Virus record (IMG/VR): IMGVR_UViG_3300044638_008118 | Location: 1 to 20,824 of that record | DNA length: 20,824 nt | Source: a virus | Strand: one strand, 5' to 3' | Shown here: positions 9,208 to 20,824 of the stretch, piece by piece | How the letters are laid out: each line of letters opens with the position of its first letter | Numbering within the stretch: position 1 is the first letter of the stretch | Notes under the pieces: model-generated | Databases searched by the model: none | The model's input: only the letters and a program-made list of their open reading frames with translations | Told to the model about the DNA's origin: nothing | Program-made: the position numbers and the translations under genes

Positions 9208-10137
9208 TTATTTCAATAAATTTAAGATAACATCAATTACTTCTTTTTTTGCAACTTCAGGAGATATTCTTCCCGCTTTTGGATCTATTTGTTCACCAGG
9301 TCGTGGATTTTTTCCAGGGTGTGCCGGTCTTGTTCTTGGTTTGGTATCAGGTTTTGTAATTGGTTTAGTTGGTGCAGTAGTTGGTTCCGCGCCAGCTTTA
9401 GGATCTATTTGTTCTCCAGGCCTTGGATTTTTACCGGGGTGAGAAGGTCTAGTTCTTGGTTTGGTATCAGGTTTTGTTGTTGGTTTCACAGGAGCTGTCA
9501 AAGGTGAAGCTTCTGCAAGATATTTTAACAAGTCCCCTTTGGTGATTCTTGGAGGTAAGTTTTTTTCTACTATTTTCATAATTTGAGATTCAATAAACAA
9601 AGATACAGGATTTTTTCCTTCTCCCAACTGTTTTTTTACTTCTTTTACACATCTTTCCCATTTTCTAGATTTTTTTGGTCCAACTTGGGAATGACAAATA
9701 GCCCATGGGTTTGGTTTGTTTTTCTTTGCTTCAGACATTCCCATCATATTTCTGTTATCATCCGAATCATCATCCATTCCATCAGGTGCCATATCATTAG
9801 CATCATGAGGGGCTTCTTGACCTGTAAGATTTTGTAGTGCGTCTGCACCTAAAGCGTTTTTGTCTGTAACATCATCTGTTTCAGTTTCTTTCATTTCACC
9901 CTCTTCCGCAGTAACCATAACTTCTTTTGTGTTAGGGTCTTGTGAAACAACAACATTACCTATTTTACCACCTTTAGGTCCTACTTTATAAGTTTTTTTA
10001 GCGGGTATTTCAGTAACTTGTTCTGATATGAACAATTTTGTGTGAAGAGTTTCGACTTGTGATTCTGTTAACTTACTCACAGTTTTTGCGGACAATCCTT
10101 TTTCGATCAGCTCCAAAGCTTTTTTGTTAATTTTCAT
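9208..10137 (-). CDS. Unidentified late protein with duplicated Pro/Lys/Arg-rich 40-aa repeat
   Basis: About 309 aa if started at the ATG at 10135-10137 (MKINKKALELIEKG); the reading frame extends two codons further to a TTG, which I consider less likely. The N-terminal part resembles a short helical domain (LSAKTVSKLTESQVETLHTK), then a Gly-rich strand region (KVGPKGGKIGNVVV), an acidic Met/Asp stretch, and a compact Cys-containing motif NPWAICHSQVGPKKSRKWER followed by CVKEVKKQ. That motif recurs, as I recall, in other phage proteins of unknown role. The C-terminal part is two tandem 40-aa repeats containing TKPDTKPRTRP and HPGKNPRPGEQIDPKAG, then a short helix. The ATG overlaps the stop of the preceding gene by 11 nt, implying coupled translation. 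Function not recognised; a virion or DNA-binding role would fit the basic repeats but is speculative. Confidence 0.72.
   Translation of the reverse strand: MKINKKALELIEKGLSAKTVSKLTESQVETLHTKLFISEQVTEIPAKKTYKVGPKGGKIGNVVVSQDPNTKEVMVTAEEGEMKETETDDVTDKNALGADALQNLTGQEAPHDANDMAPDGMDDDSDDNRNMMGMSEAKKNKPNPWAICHSQVGPKKSRKWERCVKEVKKQLGEGKNPVSLFIESQIMKIVEKNLPPRITKGDLLKYLAEASPLTAPVKPTTKPDTKPRTRPSHPGKNPRPGEQIDPKAGAEPTTAPTKPITKPDTKPRTRPAHPGKNPRPGEQIDPKAGRISPEVAKKEVIDVILNLLK
9271..9510 (-). repeat. Two tandem 120-bp repeats (40 aa each) in the 309-aa gene
   Basis: Copies lie at 9391-9510 and 9271-9390, with exact 120-nt spacing (for example ggatctattt at 9281 and 9401). At protein level the Pro-rich blocks are nearly identical, but the DNA differs at many third positions. 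This suggests an older duplication kept under protein-level selection. Confidence 0.9.
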
Positions 10138-10522
10138 ATACAACTTTCTTTTCGAATTCTAATACCAAATCTCTTTCATAGAGTTTGTCTTTTATTTCTT
10201 GTTCGGAAATTCCAAATCTGAAAACCATTCTTTTTTGGTTATCTTCATTTTCAATTTCCCAGGCTAAAGCAATGACATCATCCATTACATCTTCCATAGA
10301 AAAAAAATCGGAGTCCTGAATCAATTCCAATTTTAAATTAGTATTTCTCAGAACTCCTACTTTTTTTATGTAATGTAAATCGGGAGGACTTGGATATCCG
10401 TTAGACGGTTTACTATCCCAATCATCTCCCCATACATTCAAATCATCAGAGAAAATGAATTCGTAAAGATTTTGTCCCTTATAATCAGACCCTAATCCAT
10501 TTACGTATATCAGTTTACTCAT
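10127..10522 (-). CDS. Unidentified 131-aa protein
   Basis: I do not recognise this protein. It starts MSKLIYVNGLGSDYKGQNLY and contains a Trp/Asp-rich turn (DLNVWGDDWDSKPSNGYPSP) followed by strand-like LHYIKKVGVLRNTNLKLELI and an acidic helix EDVMDDVIALAWEIEN. The pattern suggests a small alpha/beta protein, with no catalytic motif, signal peptide or membrane helix. Its start overlaps the stop of the 439-aa gene as ATGA (10519-10522), and its 3' end overlaps the next gene by 11 nt, so it is clearly part of a tightly coupled late operon. Those overlaps on both sides make it a secure gene despite the unknown product. Confidence 0.78.
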   Translation of the reverse strand: MSKLIYVNGLGSDYKGQNLYEFIFSDDLNVWGDDWDSKPSNGYPSPPDLHYIKKVGVLRNTNLKLELIQDSDFFSMEDVMDDVIALAWEIENEDNQKRMVFRFGISEQEIKDKLYERDLVLEFEKKVVYEN

Positions 10523-11864: not shown

Positions 11865-13112
11865 TTAATTATTCAACCCTTGGAATCCACCCAAAGATAT
11901 TGCGTTTAATTGAATGATTGTAACATTCCCCTCTTCACTTGTCATTACCTGATAAGGAACTGTAGATCCTGATGGTGCAGTTCCACCACTAAATGAACCT
12001 AACATATCCAAAGTATATTCATATTGGGCATTCACATAAATAGTGTAACCTGAGGTCACACTCGGAGTCGGTGTTGATGTTGGAGTTGATGCTGGAGTAC
12101 CAGTCGGAGTTGGAGTCACGGCCGCAGTTCCTGTAGGGGATGCTGTTATACTTGGTGTTGGTGTGTTAGTTGCTGTGTTAGTTGGTGTTGATGTTTGTGT
12201 CGTAGTAACACTTGGTGTTGGAGTTCGGGTTGCAGTCGCAGTATTAGTTGGTGTTTGAGTTTGTGTTGCCGTATTAGTTGGTGTCTGTGTTGTAGTCGGA
12301 GTTGGTGTGACAGCAGCAGTTCCAGTCTGTGTTGGCGTAGGTGTTTGTGTTGAAGTTGTAGTTGGTGTTGGAGTGTTTGATGCTGTAGGGGTTGGAGTAA
12401 TATCTCCAATACATTCTAAACAAGTGTTCCAAGGCCCATTGAAAATTGTTACTGTCAGTGCTAAAGGAGTTACAATTCCATCTGCAACAGTAAAACATTC
12501 GTGACTACCGTCTTCAAATGATAAATCATAAATTTTATTATTCACCAAACTACCTATAATTTTAGCGTAAATTGTTTCACCTCCCTCACATGGAGTTATA
12601 ATGTAATACGAAAATGGTAATGGCGATTTTGTTGGAGTGGAGGTGTTAGTTGGAGTCACACTTGGAGTGGCAGTTTGTGTTGCGGTATTTGTTGGAGTCG
12701 GTGTGTTAGTTGCAGTTTTTGTAGGGGTAGCAGTATTTGTCGGTGTTACTGTTGGAGTTGAGGTATTTGTTGGGGTCTGAGTATTTGTTGGAGTTAAGGT
12801 ATTAGTTGGAGTCGCGGTATTAGTTGGAGTTTGTGTATTAGTTGGAGTTTGTGTTGGAGTTGCGGTATTTGAAGCGGTTGGAGTTGGTGTAATATCTCCC
12901 AAACAATCAATGCAATTATTCCAAGGTCCATTAAAAATTGTTGCAGTCAGTGCCAAAGGAGTATCAACACCTGGCTCAATTGAGTAACATCCATTACCCC
13001 CACCGTCAATGATTAAATCATAGGTTTTACCCTGAATAAGGTTTTCCTCTGACTTAATATATAATTGTGTTGAGGAATTACAAGATGATGCAATATAAAA
13101 ACTGAAAGCCAT
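11865..13112 (-). CDS. Thr/Pro-repeat protein with a duplicated Cys-containing domain
   Basis: A 415-aa protein with the layout A1 - linker - A2 - linker - B. A1 (residues about 1-75) and A2 (about 163-237) are clear copies: each has a strand FSFYI/FSYYI, one early Cys, a KTYDL/KIYDL strand, a single Cys before S/T, then TPLALT and IFNGPWN followed by CxxCxGDITPTPT. The two linkers are long TPT/TNT/TQT repeats. B (about 350-415) is a small strand-rich domain starting GYTIYVNAQYEYTLDMLG. There is no signal peptide. Late position and modular build with extended mucin-like linkers suggest a virion surface, fibre or head-decoration protein that binds host or polysaccharide; this is inference. The paired Cys in A1 and A2 could form a disulfide or bind metal. 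TATTTATA stands 13 nt before the ATG. Confidence 0.8.
   Translation of the reverse strand: MAFSFYIASSCNSSTQLYIKSEENLIQGKTYDLIIDGGGNGCYSIEPGVDTPLALTATIFNGPWNNCIDCLGDITPTPTASNTATPTQTPTNTQTPTNTATPTNTLTPTNTQTPTNTSTPTVTPTNTATPTKTATNTPTPTNTATQTATPSVTPTNTSTPTKSPLPFSYYIITPCEGGETIYAKIIGSLVNNKIYDLSFEDGSHECFTVADGIVTPLALTVTIFNGPWNTCLECIGDITPTPTASNTPTPTTTSTQTPTPTQTGTAAVTPTPTTTQTPTNTATQTQTPTNTATATRTPTPSVTTTQTSTPTNTATNTPTPSITASPTGTAAVTPTPTGTPASTPTSTPTPSVTSGYTIYVNAQYEYTLDMLGSFSGGTAPSGSTVPYQVMTSEEGNVTIIQLNAISLGGFQGLNN
12052..12893 (-). repeat. Degenerate GTTGGAGT-type repeats encoding Thr/Pro linkers
   Basis: Two low-complexity blocks (about 12052-12402 and 12630-12893) made of imperfect 6- and 12-nt units such as gttggagt and gttggtgt on the plus strand, separated by the duplicated globular domain. 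They encode TPT, TNT and TQT runs and are likely hot spots for length variation. Confidence 0.85.
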
Positions 13113-14522: not shown

Positions 14523-14894
14523 TTATTTTAGTTTTCTTAACTGATCCCTAATTTCAATCGATTTTTCAAAGTTTTGTTCTTCGATTGATTTTTTGAGGTC
14601 CTCTTCAAGTTTGTCGATTTCCTTTTGGTTAGATTCCAATTTTTTGATTTGGTCTCTTAGTTCAACCGCTTTTTCAAAATCTTCATTTTCAATTGCGATT
14701 TCAAGTTGTTGTTTCAAATTTTTTGAAGTTGGGTTTGTTTTAGCGTTGTCGTAGTAATACGTAGTTATTTTCATTGTTCCGTCATCTGAAACTTTAGTTT
14801 GAGTTTTCCACTCACCGTTAGATGGGGTTAATTGATTGAACATTTCGTCGAATGCTCTAAAGATGTCGTTATAAGATCTTCTGTTACCAAACAT
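14523..14894 (-). CDS. Small protein with two UVR motifs (McsA/UvrB-C-like interaction modules)
   Basis: A 123-aa protein. Residues 60-87 and 95-123 are two UVR motifs: LKQQLEIAIENEDFEKAVEL then RDQIKKLE, and LEEDLKKSIEEQNFEKSIEI then RDQLRKLK. Each is a helical hairpin with the conserved E.F.KA/SxE/IxRDQ. UVR motifs mediate pairing of UvrB with UvrC and occur in the Clp adaptor McsA and in the middle domain of ClpC. The first 50 residues (MFGNRRSYNDIFRAFDEMFN and a strand-rich WKTQTKVSDDGTMKITTYYY) are not recognised and contain no Cys, so McsA zinc fingers are absent. It is transcribed divergently from the ClpC-type unfoldase across 172 bp and ends at its own terminator. A role as adaptor or regulator of that unfoldase is inferred from the shared motif and adjacency. 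Confidence 0.85.
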   Translation of the reverse strand: MFGNRRSYNDIFRAFDEMFNQLTPSNGEWKTQTKVSDDGTMKITTYYYDNAKTNPTSKNLKQQLEIAIENEDFEKAVELRDQIKKLESNQKEIDKLEEDLKKSIEEQNFEKSIEIRDQLRKLK

Positions 14895-14960: not shown

Positions 14961-14979
14961 TTATGACAATATGTCATAA
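14961..14979. promoter_or_regulatory. Perfect dyad operator candidate, TTATGACA-ATA-TGTCATAA
   Basis: Two 8-bp arms, TTATGACA (14961-14968) and TGTCATAA (14972-14979), are exact inverted copies around a 3-bp centre. The site is centred at 14970 in the divergent region between the UVR and ClpC-type genes. No T-run follows on either strand, so it looks like a dimeric repressor/activator site. It does not match CIRCE or the CtsR box. Confidence 0.7.
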
Positions 14980-15002: not shown

Positions 15003-15019
15003 TATGACAAGGTGTCTGA
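15003..15019. promoter_or_regulatory. Degenerate second operator copy
   Basis: TATGACAAGGTGTCTGA shares TATGACAA and the facing TGTC with the perfect dyad. Its centre (15011) is 41 bp from the first, about four helical turns, placing both on the same DNA face. It ends 4 bp before the TTG of the proximal promoter. Confidence 0.55.
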
Positions 15020-15066: not shown

Positions 15067-17082
15067 ATGAACGACTTAATGGACGACGAAGACAAAATGA
15101 TGAGTAAAAAACAGAGATCCACTCAAGAAAGTAGAACTCCTGTACTCGATAACTTCAGTAGAGACCTTAATAAACTAGCTGAAGATGGTAAGTTGGACCC
15201 TGTGATTGGGAGAGATCGAGAGATTCTAAGAATTGCTCAAATTTTATCTCGAAGAAAAAAAAATAACCCAATTATCATAGGAGAACCTGGTTGTGGTAAA
15301 ACCGCGATTGTCGAGGGTTTAGCAATGAAAATTGTTAGTGGTGAATGTCCACGAAATCTATTGGACAAAAGATTGGTAAATCTTGACCTTACTTCAGTTG
15401 TTGCGGGCACAAAATACCGTGGACAATTTGAAGAAAGAATGAAAGTCATAATCGAAGAACTACAGGCGAACCCTAACATCATTGTTTTCATTGATGAGAT
15501 TCATACATTGGTTGGATCTGGTAATTCTGCAGGATCTATGGATGGATCTAACATCTTCAAACCAGCACTATCTCGTGGCGAAATTCAAATCGTCGGTGCA
15601 ACAACTTTGGATGAGTTCCGAAAAAACATCGAAAAGGATGGAGCATTGGAAAGACGATTCCAAAAAATTATTGTTGAACCTTCCACCGTTGTTGAGACAA
15701 TACAAATTCTAAAGAATGTTAGAGACAAATATGAGTCATACCATAAAGTTAGTTATTCGGACGAAGTGGTTGAAACTTGTGTGAAACTTGCTGATCGATA
15801 CATCACAGACAGAGAATTTCCTGATAAGGCATTTGACATCTTAGATGAGGTTGGGGCTCGTATGCAAACTGAGTTGAAGATCCCTGATTCAATCGAGGAA
15901 CTCAAGAAGAAAGCAGCTGAACTTAGACAACAAAAGTTGGACGTAGTTAAGAAACAAAACTACGAACAAGCCGCTCAACTGAGAGATAAAGAAAAAAAGT
16001 TGTTGGACAAGTTGGATCAAGAAAAAAAGAAATTTGAAGAACAACTATCTAAAGACAAACAAAAAGTAAATTTGGAGGATGTTTACGATGTTGTTTCCAA
16101 CATGACTAAAATTCCTGTCAACAAAATGTCTGTGGATGATACCAAAGCATTGTTGAATTTGGATAAACATATTGTTGGGACTGTGATTGGTCAGGATGCC
16201 GCTGTTATCAAAGTCGCAAAATCCATCAAAAGAAATCGACTTGGTATCAAAGATCCTAATCGTCCAATTGGTTCGTTTGTTTTCTTGGGATCTACGGGGG
16301 TTGGTAAAACTCACTTAGCGAAACAACTTGCAAAAGAAATGTTCGGTAGTGAGGAAGCTTTGATTCGTGTAGATATGTCCGAATATCAAGAAAAACACAC
16401 CGTATCCAAATTGGTTGGAGCACCTCCAGGTTATGTTGGTTATGAAGAAGGTGGACTTTTGACTGAAAAAGTTAAGAACAAACCTTACTCTGTTATCTTG
16501 TTTGATGAGGTTGAGAAAGCTCACAAAGATGTATTCACCGTATTACTTCAAATCTTGGATGATGGGCACGTTACAGATAGTTTAGGTAGAAAGATCAATT
16601 TCAAAAATACTTTGATCATCCTTACTTCAAATCTTGGCGTGAAAAAACTACAAGATTTCGGAACCGGTATTGGATTTTCCAACAACTCATACAGTAACGA
16701 AGAAGCGAAAAAAGAAATCTTGATGAAAGAGATGAAAAATTTCTTTTCTCCTGAGTTTATCAATCGTATCGATGATACCATTGTATTCAATTCTCTTTCT
16801 CAAGATGATATCAAGAAAATCACCGATATCGAACTTAAGAAGTTGATGAAGCGTCTCGAAGAAATGAAGTATAAAATTTCTTATGATGAATCTTTGGTTG
16901 AATATCTATCCAAAATCGGATACGATGAAGTATATGGAGCTAGACCATTGAAAAGAGCGATTCAAGACAAAGTAGAGGACTTGTTATCTGAAGAAGTTTT
17001 GACCGATAAGATTGTTGAAGGTAAAACTTACGTAATCAAAGTCGAAAACGAAGAGGTTAAAGTAATTAAGAAAGGTCGGTAA
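15067..17082 (+). CDS. ClpC/ClpA-type AAA+ unfoldase lacking the N-terminal domain
   Basis: A 671-aa HSP100 ATPase with two AAA+ modules. D1 has Walker A GEPGCGKT (72-79), pore loop KYRG (116-119), Walker B IIVFIDE (138-144) and the arginine-finger stretch ALERRF. D2 has GSTGVGKT (408-415), pore loop GYVG (455-458), Walker B VILFDE (476-481) and the sensor-2 GARPLKRAI. Between them (about 270-332) is a short ClpC-like middle domain with the UVR-type phrase NYEQAAQLRDKE. IGF at 535-537, between the sensor-1 strand (ILTSNLG) and FFSPEFINR, is the ClpP-docking tripeptide found in ClpA/ClpC/ClpX and absent from the disaggregase ClpB, so it should feed ClpP. No clpP gene is in the window, so host ClpP is the likely partner. 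Cellular ClpC is about 810-850 aa; here the N-domain that binds adaptors is replaced by about 25 charged residues. A strong terminator follows. Confidence 0.93.
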   Translation: MNDLMDDEDKMMSKKQRSTQESRTPVLDNFSRDLNKLAEDGKLDPVIGRDREILRIAQILSRRKKNNPIIIGEPGCGKTAIVEGLAMKIVSGECPRNLLDKRLVNLDLTSVVAGTKYRGQFEERMKVIIEELQANPNIIVFIDEIHTLVGSGNSAGSMDGSNIFKPALSRGEIQIVGATTLDEFRKNIEKDGALERRFQKIIVEPSTVVETIQILKNVRDKYESYHKVSYSDEVVETCVKLADRYITDREFPDKAFDILDEVGARMQTELKIPDSIEELKKKAAELRQQKLDVVKKQNYEQAAQLRDKEKKLLDKLDQEKKKFEEQLSKDKQKVNLEDVYDVVSNMTKIPVNKMSVDDTKALLNLDKHIVGTVIGQDAAVIKVAKSIKRNRLGIKDPNRPIGSFVFLGSTGVGKTHLAKQLAKEMFGSEEALIRVDMSEYQEKHTVSKLVGAPPGYVGYEEGGLLTEKVKNKPYSVILFDEVEKAHKDVFTVLLQILDDGHVTDSLGRKINFKNTLIILTSNLGVKKLQDFGTGIGFSNNSYSNEEAKKEILMKEMKNFFSPEFINRIDDTIVFNSLSQDDIKKITDIELKKLMKRLEEMKYKISYDESLVEYLSKIGYDEVYGARPLKRAIQDKVEDLLSEEVLTDKIVEGKTYVIKVENEEVKVIKKGR

Positions 17083-17084
17083 TT

Positions 17085-17112
17085 AAAAAGGGGGATATTT
17101 CCCCCTTTTTTT
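17085..17112 (+). terminator. Rho-independent terminator after the ClpC-type gene
   Basis: AAAAAGGGGG (17085-17094) pairs with CCCCCTTTTT (17101-17110) around ATATTT, followed by more T. It starts 3 nt after the stop codon at 17080-17082. Confidence 0.95.
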
Positions 17113-17113
17113 A

Positions 17114-17124: not shown

Positions 17125-17733
17125 ATGAGTAATTTTTCAATATTATTAGATCGTTTCAAGAAAAGGTTCCCAAATCAATATCAATCCAAAATTGATATCA
17201 TTGAAAAGTTTGTAACTGATTATATTGAGAAGAGAAACATAAATGTAAAATTTTTAAATTCTTGTTCCGTAGGATTCAAAGGAGTTAGAACAAGAGATCA
17301 AGTTATAATTTGTTCTCCTGTAGAAATGGAAAGTATTGGAGATTTTTTATATACAATATTTCATGAAATCAGACACGAGCAACAAATGAGAGACATTAAA
17401 ATGAGGAACCCTCTCACTGATTTTGATTTGTCCGATTTCGAAGAACTTTATCAACAATATTGGGAAATGGAATTGGATGCTGATCAATTTGCTAAAAATA
17501 TGGTTGCTAAATTGATTATAAAATTGAACATCCCTTTAGAGATAGCTAAAAAATACTTTTCATTATCACCATACGTAGAAAAGTACCCTACGTTGTCGAA
17601 TATGATTCGAAGTAGTGTCTATCAAATTATAGAGGACATAAAAAGAATAAAAAAATCGGGTGGAGAATATACCGATATTCAAGACCACCCGATAGTTAAA
17701 AGACACATCGATAAGTTAGAAGATTTTATTTAA
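17125..17733 (+). CDS. Predicted zinc metallopeptidase (HEXXH)
   Basis: A 202-aa protein with the zinc-peptidase motif HEIRHEQQ (His80, Glu81, His84) at the end of helix FLYTIFHEIRHEQQ, and a downstream helix WEMELDADQFAKNMV whose Glu116 (with Asp120) is the probable third ligand. HEXXH plus ExxAD is the gluzincin layout seen in ImmA/IrrE-like M78 and related minimal proteases. The N-terminal region (residues 1-70) has strand segments typical of such folds, and the C-terminal 60 residues are helical. No signal peptide is present, so it should act in the cytoplasm. Its target is unknown. In M78-type systems the peptidase cleaves a repressor, so a regulatory substrate is possible. It lies between the ClpC-type gene and a convergent peptidase gene with no space at the junction. 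Family assignment beyond the motif is uncertain. Confidence 0.8.
   Translation: MSNFSILLDRFKKRFPNQYQSKIDIIEKFVTDYIEKRNINVKFLNSCSVGFKGVRTRDQVIICSPVEMESIGDFLYTIFHEIRHEQQMRDIKMRNPLTDFDLSDFEELYQQYWEMELDADQFAKNMVAKLIIKLNIPLEIAKKYFSLSPYVEKYPTLSNMIRSSVYQIIEDIKRIKKSGGEYTDIQDHPIVKRHIDKLEDFI
17655..17693 (-). terminator. Antisense terminator inside the metallopeptidase gene
   Basis: ATCGGGTGG (17655-17663) pairs perfectly with CCACCCGAT (17685-17693). Inside is a second perfect stem, GAATAT with ATATTC, closed by ACCG. On the minus strand the hairpin runs into TTTTTTATTCTTTT. It lies 41-79 nt beyond the stop of the convergent peptidase gene, so it probably ends that minus-strand transcript. Confidence 0.85.
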
Positions 17734-18567
17734 TTAAAAGGGGTGAAATTGTCCTTTTGGAACTGACTTTTTGAAATGTAATTTATAACCCAAATCTTCA
17801 ATCATTTTTCTTCCCATTTCAATTCCGTTGAATACATCCTCGATTACTACGTATTCCTCTGGAGTGTGGTAATCGTAATATCCAATAGAAAAATTTATAC
17901 AAGAAAAATCAAATTTTCCTCTCAATGCATAAACATCTGTGTATGGGTGAACCATATACTCCATATAGTCCCAATTCATGCCCTCAGTGAGTACCTTATT
18001 AACTTTTTCGAAAAATTCAGACCCTCTATCGAATAGTATCTGACCGAAACATTTTTCAGTGATCATCCAATTCTCAGGAGCATCGAACTGAATTCCATAC
18101 CCCACATTTTCAAAAAATTTTGGGTCTGCAGATCTTGAACCGATACAACCGATTTCTTCGGACACAAAGAAAGCCGCTTTGAGATACGGTAACTCTTTCA
18201 ATAAAGTAAGACATGCAAACACACCGCATTTATCATCCCCTCCGATACCTGTCGGGGTTTCTCTATCGTTAAATGCCTTCAATGATGGTTTGAGTTCACC
18301 TTGAGCGTTTTTCAACATCATTTCTCTGATGTTGATTGTATCGATGTGGTGAACTGTATCTGTATGTGATATTACACAAGGAAAATAGAAATCTTCTGGT
18401 AACTCTGAGGTTTCTTGTTTGGTCGCATAAACATTCATTTTATCATCAACATAATGATCAATATTGTTTTCGGTCAACCAATTAACCAAGAATTCAACCA
18501 TACGATGTTCTTGGTGAGTTTTTGTGGGGATGCTCAAAACTTCTTTGAGCAAATTTATATCTTTCAT
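17734..18567 (-). CDS. Compact clan-MH metallopeptidase (M20/PepT-like or M28-like)
   Basis: A 277-aa protein with the full two-zinc ligand set of clan MH in order: SHTDTVH (His68, Asp70), GIGGDDKCG (Asp111 or Asp112, bridging), SEEIGCIGS (Glu137 catalytic, Glu138 ligand), FDAPENW (Asp162), and DYHTPEEYV (His244). GGDDKCG and the HxPEEY end resemble peptidase T and other M20 enzymes, which remove N-terminal residues from peptides. M20 enzymes are usually 370-450 aa because of an inserted dimerisation (lid) domain. Here the gap between Asp162 and His244 is only 82 residues, so the insertion is absent, a layout more like M28. No signal peptide. A role in degrading peptides released by Clp proteolysis is plausible but inferred. 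TATTTATA is 10 nt before the ATG and the 348-aa gene precedes it. Confidence 0.85.
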   Translation of the reverse strand: MKDINLLKEVLSIPTKTHQEHRMVEFLVNWLTENNIDHYVDDKMNVYATKQETSELPEDFYFPCVISHTDTVHHIDTINIREMMLKNAQGELKPSLKAFNDRETPTGIGGDDKCGVFACLTLLKELPYLKAAFFVSEEIGCIGSRSADPKFFENVGYGIQFDAPENWMITEKCFGQILFDRGSEFFEKVNKVLTEGMNWDYMEYMVHPYTDVYALRGKFDFSCINFSIGYYDYHTPEEYVVIEDVFNGIEMGRKMIEDLGYKLHFKKSVPKGQFHPF

Positions 18568-20116: not shown

Positions 20117-20143
20117 AAGGGGTCATTCGACCCCTTTTTTTTT
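20117..20143 (+). terminator. Rho-independent terminator after tmRNA
   Basis: AAGGGGTC (20117-20124) pairs with GACCCCTT (20129-20136) around ATTC, followed by a run of T to 20143. The hairpin starts 8 nt after the tmRNA CCA end. On the minus strand it lies just past the stop of the beta-helix gene, but only a weak T-run follows there. Confidence 0.93.
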
Positions 20144-20824
20144 AGTTTCCTTTTGACGGAAATCTTGTCCATCCATTGACCCATATAGGTTTATCTAATT
20201 CAGGTATTACCACGTCAACTTCTTTATTACTTTTTGATAATGCTAATGTTTTAAGTTGTTCACTTGTTAGAATTGTTGTTGCTCTACTAATGAAATTCAG
20301 AGTTGGATTGAATGTTCCAACAGAATTGTTTTCAAAGACAGATACACCATCTTTTACGAATTGTGCAGTTTCATTACTTTCCAAACTCAATCCACCTTTC
20401 ATCCATCCCCAAACAATACTATTTTTCATAGTGAATTGGGTTGCTCTTCTGAATCTCAATCCGAGATTGTGGTTTGCTAACGCCGAACTAACATTTGGTC
20501 CAACTAAAATCATGTTGAAAAGTTTTGGATGGGTGTAAGGTTGAGCAGATGAGCCAGTTCCATCGTTATCACATTCAATACCATTACCAGCATCACCACT
20601 ATCTACGAATTGTGGGTCTCTTTTGGCAATTCCATTAGTAATGGTGCCTGTGTATCCGAAATCAAAATCGAAATCATCGTCAGCGGTTGCATACGCGTAA
20701 AGATTTTTACCATTTACTGTTCCACCAAAGAATTCAAATGCGTCGTCGTTAGCGTATACTGTTTGGATGTTTTCAAGAATTGTTCCATTACCTACACCTC
20801 CGAGAGTCAATGCATTTATTTCAG
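20142..20824 (-). CDS. Beta-helix surface/fibre-like protein, C-terminal part
   Basis: The reading frame is open to the right edge (residues EINA precede LTLGGVGNGT), so this is the end of a larger gene and no start is present. The 227 visible residues are Asn/Gly/Asp-rich with short strand-turn repeats: TILENIQTVYANDDAFEFFG, TVNGKNLYAYATADDDFDFD, then FGYTGTITNGIAKRDPQFVD and GNGIECDN. This is the pattern of a right-handed parallel beta helix and looks closely like C-terminal regions of large secreted or surface proteins of Bacteroidota. No T9SS sorting domain is seen at the C-terminus, which ends WTRFPSKGN. In a phage it could be a tail fibre, tailspike or virion adhesin. Host-derived acquisition is possible. 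Assignment is by composition and recalled pattern. Confidence 0.68.
   Translation of the reverse strand, partial: EINALTLGGVGNGTILENIQTVYANDDAFEFFGGTVNGKNLYAYATADDDFDFDFGYTGTITNGIAKRDPQFVDSGDAGNGIECDNDGTGSSAQPYTHPKLFNMILVGPNVSSALANHNLGLRFRRATQFTMKNSIVWGWMKGGLSLESNETAQFVKDGVSVFENNSVGTFNPTLNFISRATTILTSEQLKTLALSKSNKEVDVVIPELDKPIWVNGWTRFPSKGN

Follow-up and report, generated by a model that had tools for sequence, protein, structure and literature searches.

An N-domain-less ClpC-type unfoldase from a large phage, its probable phage-encoded ClpP partner and an exchangeable neighbouring gene

The stretch of DNA analysed here (the window) is an entire virus record of 20,824 bases and represents a fragment of a phage genome. 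At 15067–17082 on the plus strand it carries a gene for a 671-residue AAA+ unfoldase of the ClpC type from which the N-domain is absent, as judged from the open reading frame, family matches, alignment and predicted structure. We consider it probable that this protein belongs to a phage-owned ClpC–ClpP protease in which activation or substrate supply has been passed to the product of a small neighbouring gene, hereafter the slot gene. The clpC product would then be the unfoldase half of the protease, and its peptidase partner would most likely be a phage ClpP encoded 21–32 kb downstream, past the end of the contig. With the N-domain lost, activation and/or substrate supply would probably fall to the small, divergently encoded slot protein, whose gene appears to share with clpC an operator-like palindrome located between them. 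During infection, such a complex may serve in protein quality control or in selective degradation.

Architecture of the phage ClpC

The two AAA+ modules of the ClpC class can be recognized in the window protein from their Walker A motifs (residues 72 and 408), Walker B motifs ending in DE (residues 144 and 481), Arg residues and pore loops (KYRG, residue 116; GYVG, residue 455). In an alignment of 38 sequences, comprising 24 phage and 14 Bacteroidota ClpCs, these residues, the catalytic ones included, are invariant. An earlier note on this DNA had described the ATPase motifs and both pore loops as intact, and this is confirmed. We rely on the alignment for invariance since a regular-expression census of the Walker motifs gave counts that were too low owing to allowed substitutions. 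The protein also has a short coiled-coil M-domain of the ClpC type (residues 280–312; 15904–16002, plus strand), which contains a UVR motif (..QNYEQAAQLRD..) and an aromatic residue, a Tyr, at the position of Staphylococcus aureus F436. An aromatic residue, mostly Tyr, is kept at this position in the phage ClpCs.

The IGF tripeptide expected to dock onto ClpP is located at residues 535–537 (16669–16677, plus strand), in a flexible loop, at the ClpP-loop position that the earlier note had assigned to it. Across the phage and Bacteroidota proteins of the alignment, the first residue of the tripeptide varies conservatively. A PhiGF sequence is present in each of the 80 phage copies that extend this far (IGF in 52, VGF in 27 and LGF in one), and host Bacteroidota ClpC has either VGF or IGF. 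In S. aureus, the AGF sequence of ClpC docks into the H-sites of ClpP and its mutation abolishes the interaction (PMC12521514). In the predicted structure, everything from residue 24 onward resembles ClpC, and model confidence is very low for residues 1–20 and for the IGF loop (531–540), as expected for flexible segments.

In ClpB/Hsp104 proteins the M-domain is long and two-winged and a PhiGF loop is lacking; ClpL, an N-less disaggregase, is not known to have this docking loop either. Identity with ClpB/Hsp104 was rejected on the basis of the ClpC-type UVR M-domain, the PhiGF sequence and a score of 832 bits, well below the 1232 set as cut-off for ClpB, and identity with ClpL on the basis of PhiGF in 80/80 phage copies. 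The window protein fell under the cut-off of each of the NCBIfam models for ClpB, ClpA, ClpK and ClpG. These comparisons support the previous assignment of the protein as a protease-type ClpC rather than a ClpB.

Absence of the N-domain was evident from several lines of evidence. The protein begins with a short leader (residues 1–24; 15067–15138, plus strand) in place of the N-domain, the first 20 residues of which are predicted to be disordered (pLDDT <50), and an in-frame stop is present four codons upstream of the clpC ATG. The related phage copies were the first 80 such loci on viral contigs, and 78 of them include the 5′ end; in 78/78 the start is preceded by an in-frame stop and followed by no more than a short leader. 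The earlier note had named an upstream in-frame N-domain in relatives as evidence that would count against it. In these 78 copies the leader preceding the TPVLDNF block is 19–26 residues long, except in locus L062, where it has 36. By comparison, 182–220 residues make up the N-terminal part of Bacteroidota ClpC in 80/80 loci, and in the one protein tested (Myroides) this part corresponds to Clp_N. The nearest solved sequences, which are Firmicutes ClpCs (the best being S. aureus ClpC, with 818 residues), aligned with the window protein only from their residue 146, and the PHROG family ‘ATP-dependent protease’ matched it only from profile position 156. Clp_N was not found among the best 25 of the 40 Pfam matches of the window protein, nor in any frame of 28 long related phage records. 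A mis-called start or an upstream N-domain is therefore excluded by the in-frame stop and the 78 relatives alike, and a stand-alone N-domain protein elsewhere in the phage was rejected on the search of the 28 records. Since Clp_N was not found, we describe the protein as a ClpC-type N-less unfoldase and not as a full ClpC. In the absence of the N-domain, adaptors of the MecA, McsB or ClpS type that bind this domain would have no docking site on the phage ClpC, and the loss of the MecA and McsB site, as previously proposed, is thus supported at the level of sequence.

The clpC gene is under strong purifying selection (dN/dS ~0.03–0.06 against near relatives, with dS partly saturated). Directly 3′ of it is a strong intrinsic terminator (17085–17113, plus strand; GGGGG-ATATTT-CCCCC followed by a T-run). 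Around clpC, matches to σ70-type promoters did not exceed chance level, and we claim no promoter on the Bacteroidota-type TTTG/TAnnTTTG reading, for which a loose pattern was used.

A close experimental parallel is the engineered ΔN-ClpC of S. aureus, which resembles the phage protein in having no N-domain, an M-domain aromatic residue and a PhiGF loop. This variant binds ClpP without an adaptor and assembles into inactive head-to-head rods via the M-domain aromatic F436, and when the M–M contact is broken it becomes an active, toxic protease (PMC12583610). By analogy, the phage ClpC is predicted to bind ClpP and to form head-to-head rods, and since it resembles a natural ΔN form that retains the aromatic residue, it should need its M-domain contacts to be opened. 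The S. aureus protein is a laboratory construct, whereas the phage form has been fixed by evolution and is adjoined by a UVR or Hsp20 gene. If it is indeed a natural ΔN ClpC, it would allow the recent model in which the N-domain holds ClpC at rest and the M-domain imposes a block to be tested on a form already fixed by evolution.

The slot gene and the intergenic palindrome

Divergent from clpC is the slot gene (14523–14894, minus strand), which encodes a 123-residue protein with two UVR motifs. It matches PF02151 (UVR) in two stretches (E 2.7e-15), corresponding to two copies of the type of motif found in the M-domain of ClpC. Full-length McsA identity was rejected, because the score against the McsA family NF053706 (47.8 bits, confined to the C-terminal UVR part) is far below the cut-off of 210. 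The model of the UVR protein is weak (mean pLDDT 69), a fold search with it gave no significant match, and no homologue was found in the phage collection.

The position is not always occupied by the same gene. In relatives it holds the UVR protein, another small protein or neither, and the alternative protein is an Hsp20 (PF00011, E 1e-11 to 3e-14 in the four tested). Among the 28 long records, Hsp20 is present in six, in every case at the slot; the others have a stand-alone UVR gene there, apart from one with neither, and the two genes never occur together (0/28). On a quick ClpC tree the distribution requires at least six exchanges between UVR and Hsp20, or eleven changes if ‘neither’ is counted as a third state. 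Residues of the M-domain that might distinguish UVR-type from Hsp20-type ClpC were also sought and set aside, as few positions vary and these are confounded by ancestry. Neither slot gene is present at 17–18 loci, so the gene is dispensable for some ClpCs; in such lineages ClpC would need no slot protein or would use another factor.

Between the window and its nearest long relative, G016, the slot gene has a dS of 0.40 compared with 1.10 for clpC. This hints that, at the sequence level, the slot gene has been exchanged separately from clpC, and the low value suggests recent recombination. The UVR slot gene has a dN/dS of 0.05–0.25, and purifying selection on both it and clpC supports a function for each. 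Most neighbouring genes have dS values to G016 above that of the slot gene (~0.6–2.6), and the gene at 10127–10522 has a similar one (0.32).

The region separating the slot gene from clpC contains one or two copies of a palindrome of the form TGACA-N3-TGTCA. In the window, an exact copy (TGACAATATGTCA, operator-like site 1) is located at 14964–14976 and a degenerate second copy (TGACAAGGTGTCT, operator-like site 2) at 15005–15017. Across the related loci, the copies lie mostly between −60 and −110 relative to the clpC start. At least one exact palindrome is present in 32/35 UVR-type, 9/18 Hsp20-type and 0/17 slot-less upstream regions, counts that are inflated by kinship among the sequences; shuffled upstream sequences contain it at a frequency of ~0.0006 (~0.06%). 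Fifteen phage records totalling ~2.6 Mb contain 15 exact palindromes, 11 of which are at the slot, and on this distribution we rejected a phage-wide operator. Neither phage clpP nor host clpC has the palindrome in its upstream region. In G016, a TGACACTTTGTCA palindrome at 282385–282397, which may have arisen by chance, precedes a sigma-factor-like gene (g373) by ~300 bp.

How a slot protein might act on ClpC can be envisaged from known interactions. The UVR protein could pair with the M-domain of ClpC, thereby breaking the head-to-head ring contacts, and/or deliver substrate, whereas the Hsp20 of other lineages would hold misfolded clients and so supply ClpC. In plastids, proteins with UVR domains interact with ClpC (PMC8889267), and in Mycobacterium tuberculosis ClpS can act on ClpC1 via the M-domain without the N-domain (PMC6274998). 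On this scheme, an N-less ClpC should become active, or receive its clients, through a small UVR protein or an Hsp20. The most serious alternative is that an unrelated stress gene occupies the slot and happens to share the intergenic region, so that the swap and the palindrome concern the slot gene alone; this competes with the partner part of our explanation and not with the ClpC–ClpP part. The disappearance of the palindrome together with the slot gene while clpC remains, and the lower dS of the slot gene, which suggests separate exchange, both speak for it, and we regard it as quite possible, albeit short of an even chance, given that UVR proteins (of McsA/ClpF type) and Hsp20 both belong to proteostasis families and that the palindromes are positioned close to the clpC start.

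A ClpP encoded by related phages

The earlier note had seen no clpP gene. This is correct for the window, and the reason is that its contig stops 3.7 kb past clpC. The nearest long relative (G016, 326 kb) has a collinear homologue for all 21 window genes tested. When the search was extended to fuller genomes of relatives, ClpP (PF00574) was found in 22 of the 28 longer ones, with E-values down to 4e-59, including five of the nearest on long contigs (G001, G002, G016, G017 and G026). In each of the 13 records for which the distance was computed, clpP has the orientation of clpC and is located 20.8–31.7 kb downstream of it. Among the clpP-less records other than G023, three (G009, G014 and G025) end 10–23 kb after clpC; in G015 and G028 ~35 kb of downstream sequence is present and contains no clpP, and some lineages such as these may lack the gene or keep it elsewhere. 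In 17 records we found neither a phage ClpX, the weak matches being to clpC itself, nor a ClpS, and both were discarded as alternatives. With no ClpX and no Clp_N, ClpC is the sole Clp ATPase found for the phage ClpP (Lon and HslU were outside the search).

The alignments inspected show that the catalytic Ser, His and Asp are kept in the phage ClpPs, which in a tree form one well-supported clade that also includes the ClpP of LR745206, a phage of 635 kb, and is separate from host ClpP. The position equivalent to Tyr63 of S. aureus ClpP, the pocket or gate Tyr, is occupied by His in 18 of the 22 phage proteins and by Tyr in four, whereas Tyr is kept in 29/29 Bacteroidota ClpPs and 4/5 huge-phage ClpPs. 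A phage ClpP with mismatched pockets had been named as evidence against the earlier note, and the 18 proteins with His go some way towards this. Since the Y63A mutant of S. aureus ClpP is constitutively active (PMC9035409), it is a reasonable inference by analogy, and no more, that the Tyr to His change alters the gate of the phage ClpP; docking could also be altered. A second, diverged type of phage ClpP is found at loci L343–L346 (the ClpPs of G027, G019, G020 and G005), three of which are identical; here TPGG replaces SPGG, MTHM surrounds the active His and the gate Tyr is retained.

Since 22 of the 28 longer relatives encode their own ClpP, a phage ClpC–ClpP pair becomes the leading reading in place of capture of the host enzyme. 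We also considered a chaperone role, in which the N-less ClpC acts chiefly to unfold or remodel structural proteins of the phage as virions are assembled, the slot Hsp20 or UVR protein serving as its helper, and ClpP is a separate enzyme. The location of clpC near portal, terminase and head-protease genes in both the window and G016, the Hsp20 at the slot in relatives and a DnaJ-like ORF noticed on sequence inspection of G016 would fit such a role, which we judge unlikely on the grounds that PhiGF, unneeded for remodelling, is retained in every copy and that clpP is retained at much the same distance from clpC, without a change of strand. Less likely still is the proposal of the earlier note that phage ClpC uses IGF to dock on host ClpP, redirecting proteolysis and ignoring the adaptors: the universal PhiGF in phage copies, the ClpP (PF00574) encoded by 27/27 Bacteroidota genomes and the missing clpP downstream of clpC in G015 and G028 are in its favour, but most relatives encode a ClpP in the same genome, and this ClpP belongs to the clade, shared with LR745206, that is distinct from host ClpP.

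The phage-owned ClpC–ClpP protease can be extended into a more elaborate scheme, which we put forward as speculative and rather doubtful as a whole. In this scheme the N-domain and adaptor layer of a private ClpCP has been replaced by a plug-in slot, where UVR activates ClpC or Hsp20 feeds it clients; slot gene and operator have been exchanged repeatedly between phages; and the gate change from Tyr to His in ClpP confers specificity on the pair or leaves it constitutively open.

More broadly, a phage-owned ClpC–ClpP pair would mean that a proteolytic machine of their own is carried by many large Bacteroidota phages, with a ClpP gate residue mostly unlike that of the cellular ClpPs sampled. Such a machine is relevant to the question of how phages control protein quality or take over the host.

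Lineage, related systems and neighbouring genes

When the tree is rooted on Firmicutes sequences, the ClpCs of these phages group in a single clade (100/100) next to Bacteroidota ClpC, and the best explanation is that they descend from, or are a sister line of, the latter. Over the AAA+ core the phage proteins are 55–60% identical to ClpC of Myroides, Flavobacterium and Tenacibaculum, with which they share the M-domain and the V/IGF docking loop; the difference resides in the N-terminal part described above. Two huge phages, LR745206 and LR756502 (642 kb), also encode an N-less ClpC (701 and 707 residues, respectively) with a short leader, plus a ClpP. Their ClpCs are placed inside Bacteroidota in the same tree, unlike those of the phage clade, which suggests a separate origin, although a joint clade was not rejected (AU p 0.117). 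Since the ClpP of LR745206 is in the phage clade and its ClpC elsewhere, clpC and clpP do not always travel together.

Phage-encoded Clp proteases are already known. Genes of the ClpA type and ClpP are listed for jumbo phages in published surveys (PMC7824862, PMC6102473). Large phages with a ClpA/ClpC-type ATPase, some also with ClpP, include RaK2, PA5oct, Atu_ph07 and the PBECO4-like slurp01; these ATPases show only ~35–43% identity, and those of RaK2, PA5oct and Atu_ph07 retain Clp_N, in contrast to the phage ClpC studied here. The swap at the slot and its palindrome are, in our opinion, the most interesting unexplained part of the system.

The window virus is best explained as a large T4-like phage of (freshwater) Bacteroidota. 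From published description it probably belongs to, or is near, the moraphage lineage, which comprises large aquatic phages whose predicted hosts are Bacteroidota; a ‘ClpA’ VOG is among their common genes (24 of 28 genomes), and some have Hsp20 and DnaJ (PMC12619734). That description mentions neither ClpP nor the N-domain loss or the slot, and in the literature searched we found no account of the loss, of the ClpC–ClpP pairing of the lineage or of the slot.

The surroundings of clpC are rich in peptidase-like genes. Directly downstream, at 17125–17733 (plus strand), is a gene for a zincin-like protein with a HEIRH motif, 77% identical in G016, which had no family match above the cut-off. It is followed at 17734–18567 (minus strand) by an M20/M42-like peptidase gene (phrog_4191, E 1.5e-33), possibly equivalent to the ‘putative peptidase’ VOG of the moraphages. 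Further from clpC, a long, repetitive, low-complexity protein rich in TPTPT (11865–13112, minus strand) is 84% identical in G016. At the right edge of the window (20142–20822, minus strand), an ORF corresponds to the C-terminal portion of a lipoprotein-like gene, 96% identical in G016, where the gene is situated beside one for an 828-residue outer-membrane protein resembling TonB-dependent receptors (Plug, OMP_b-brl_3; G016 159919–163598). Such an outer-membrane receptor pair is unusual on a phage.
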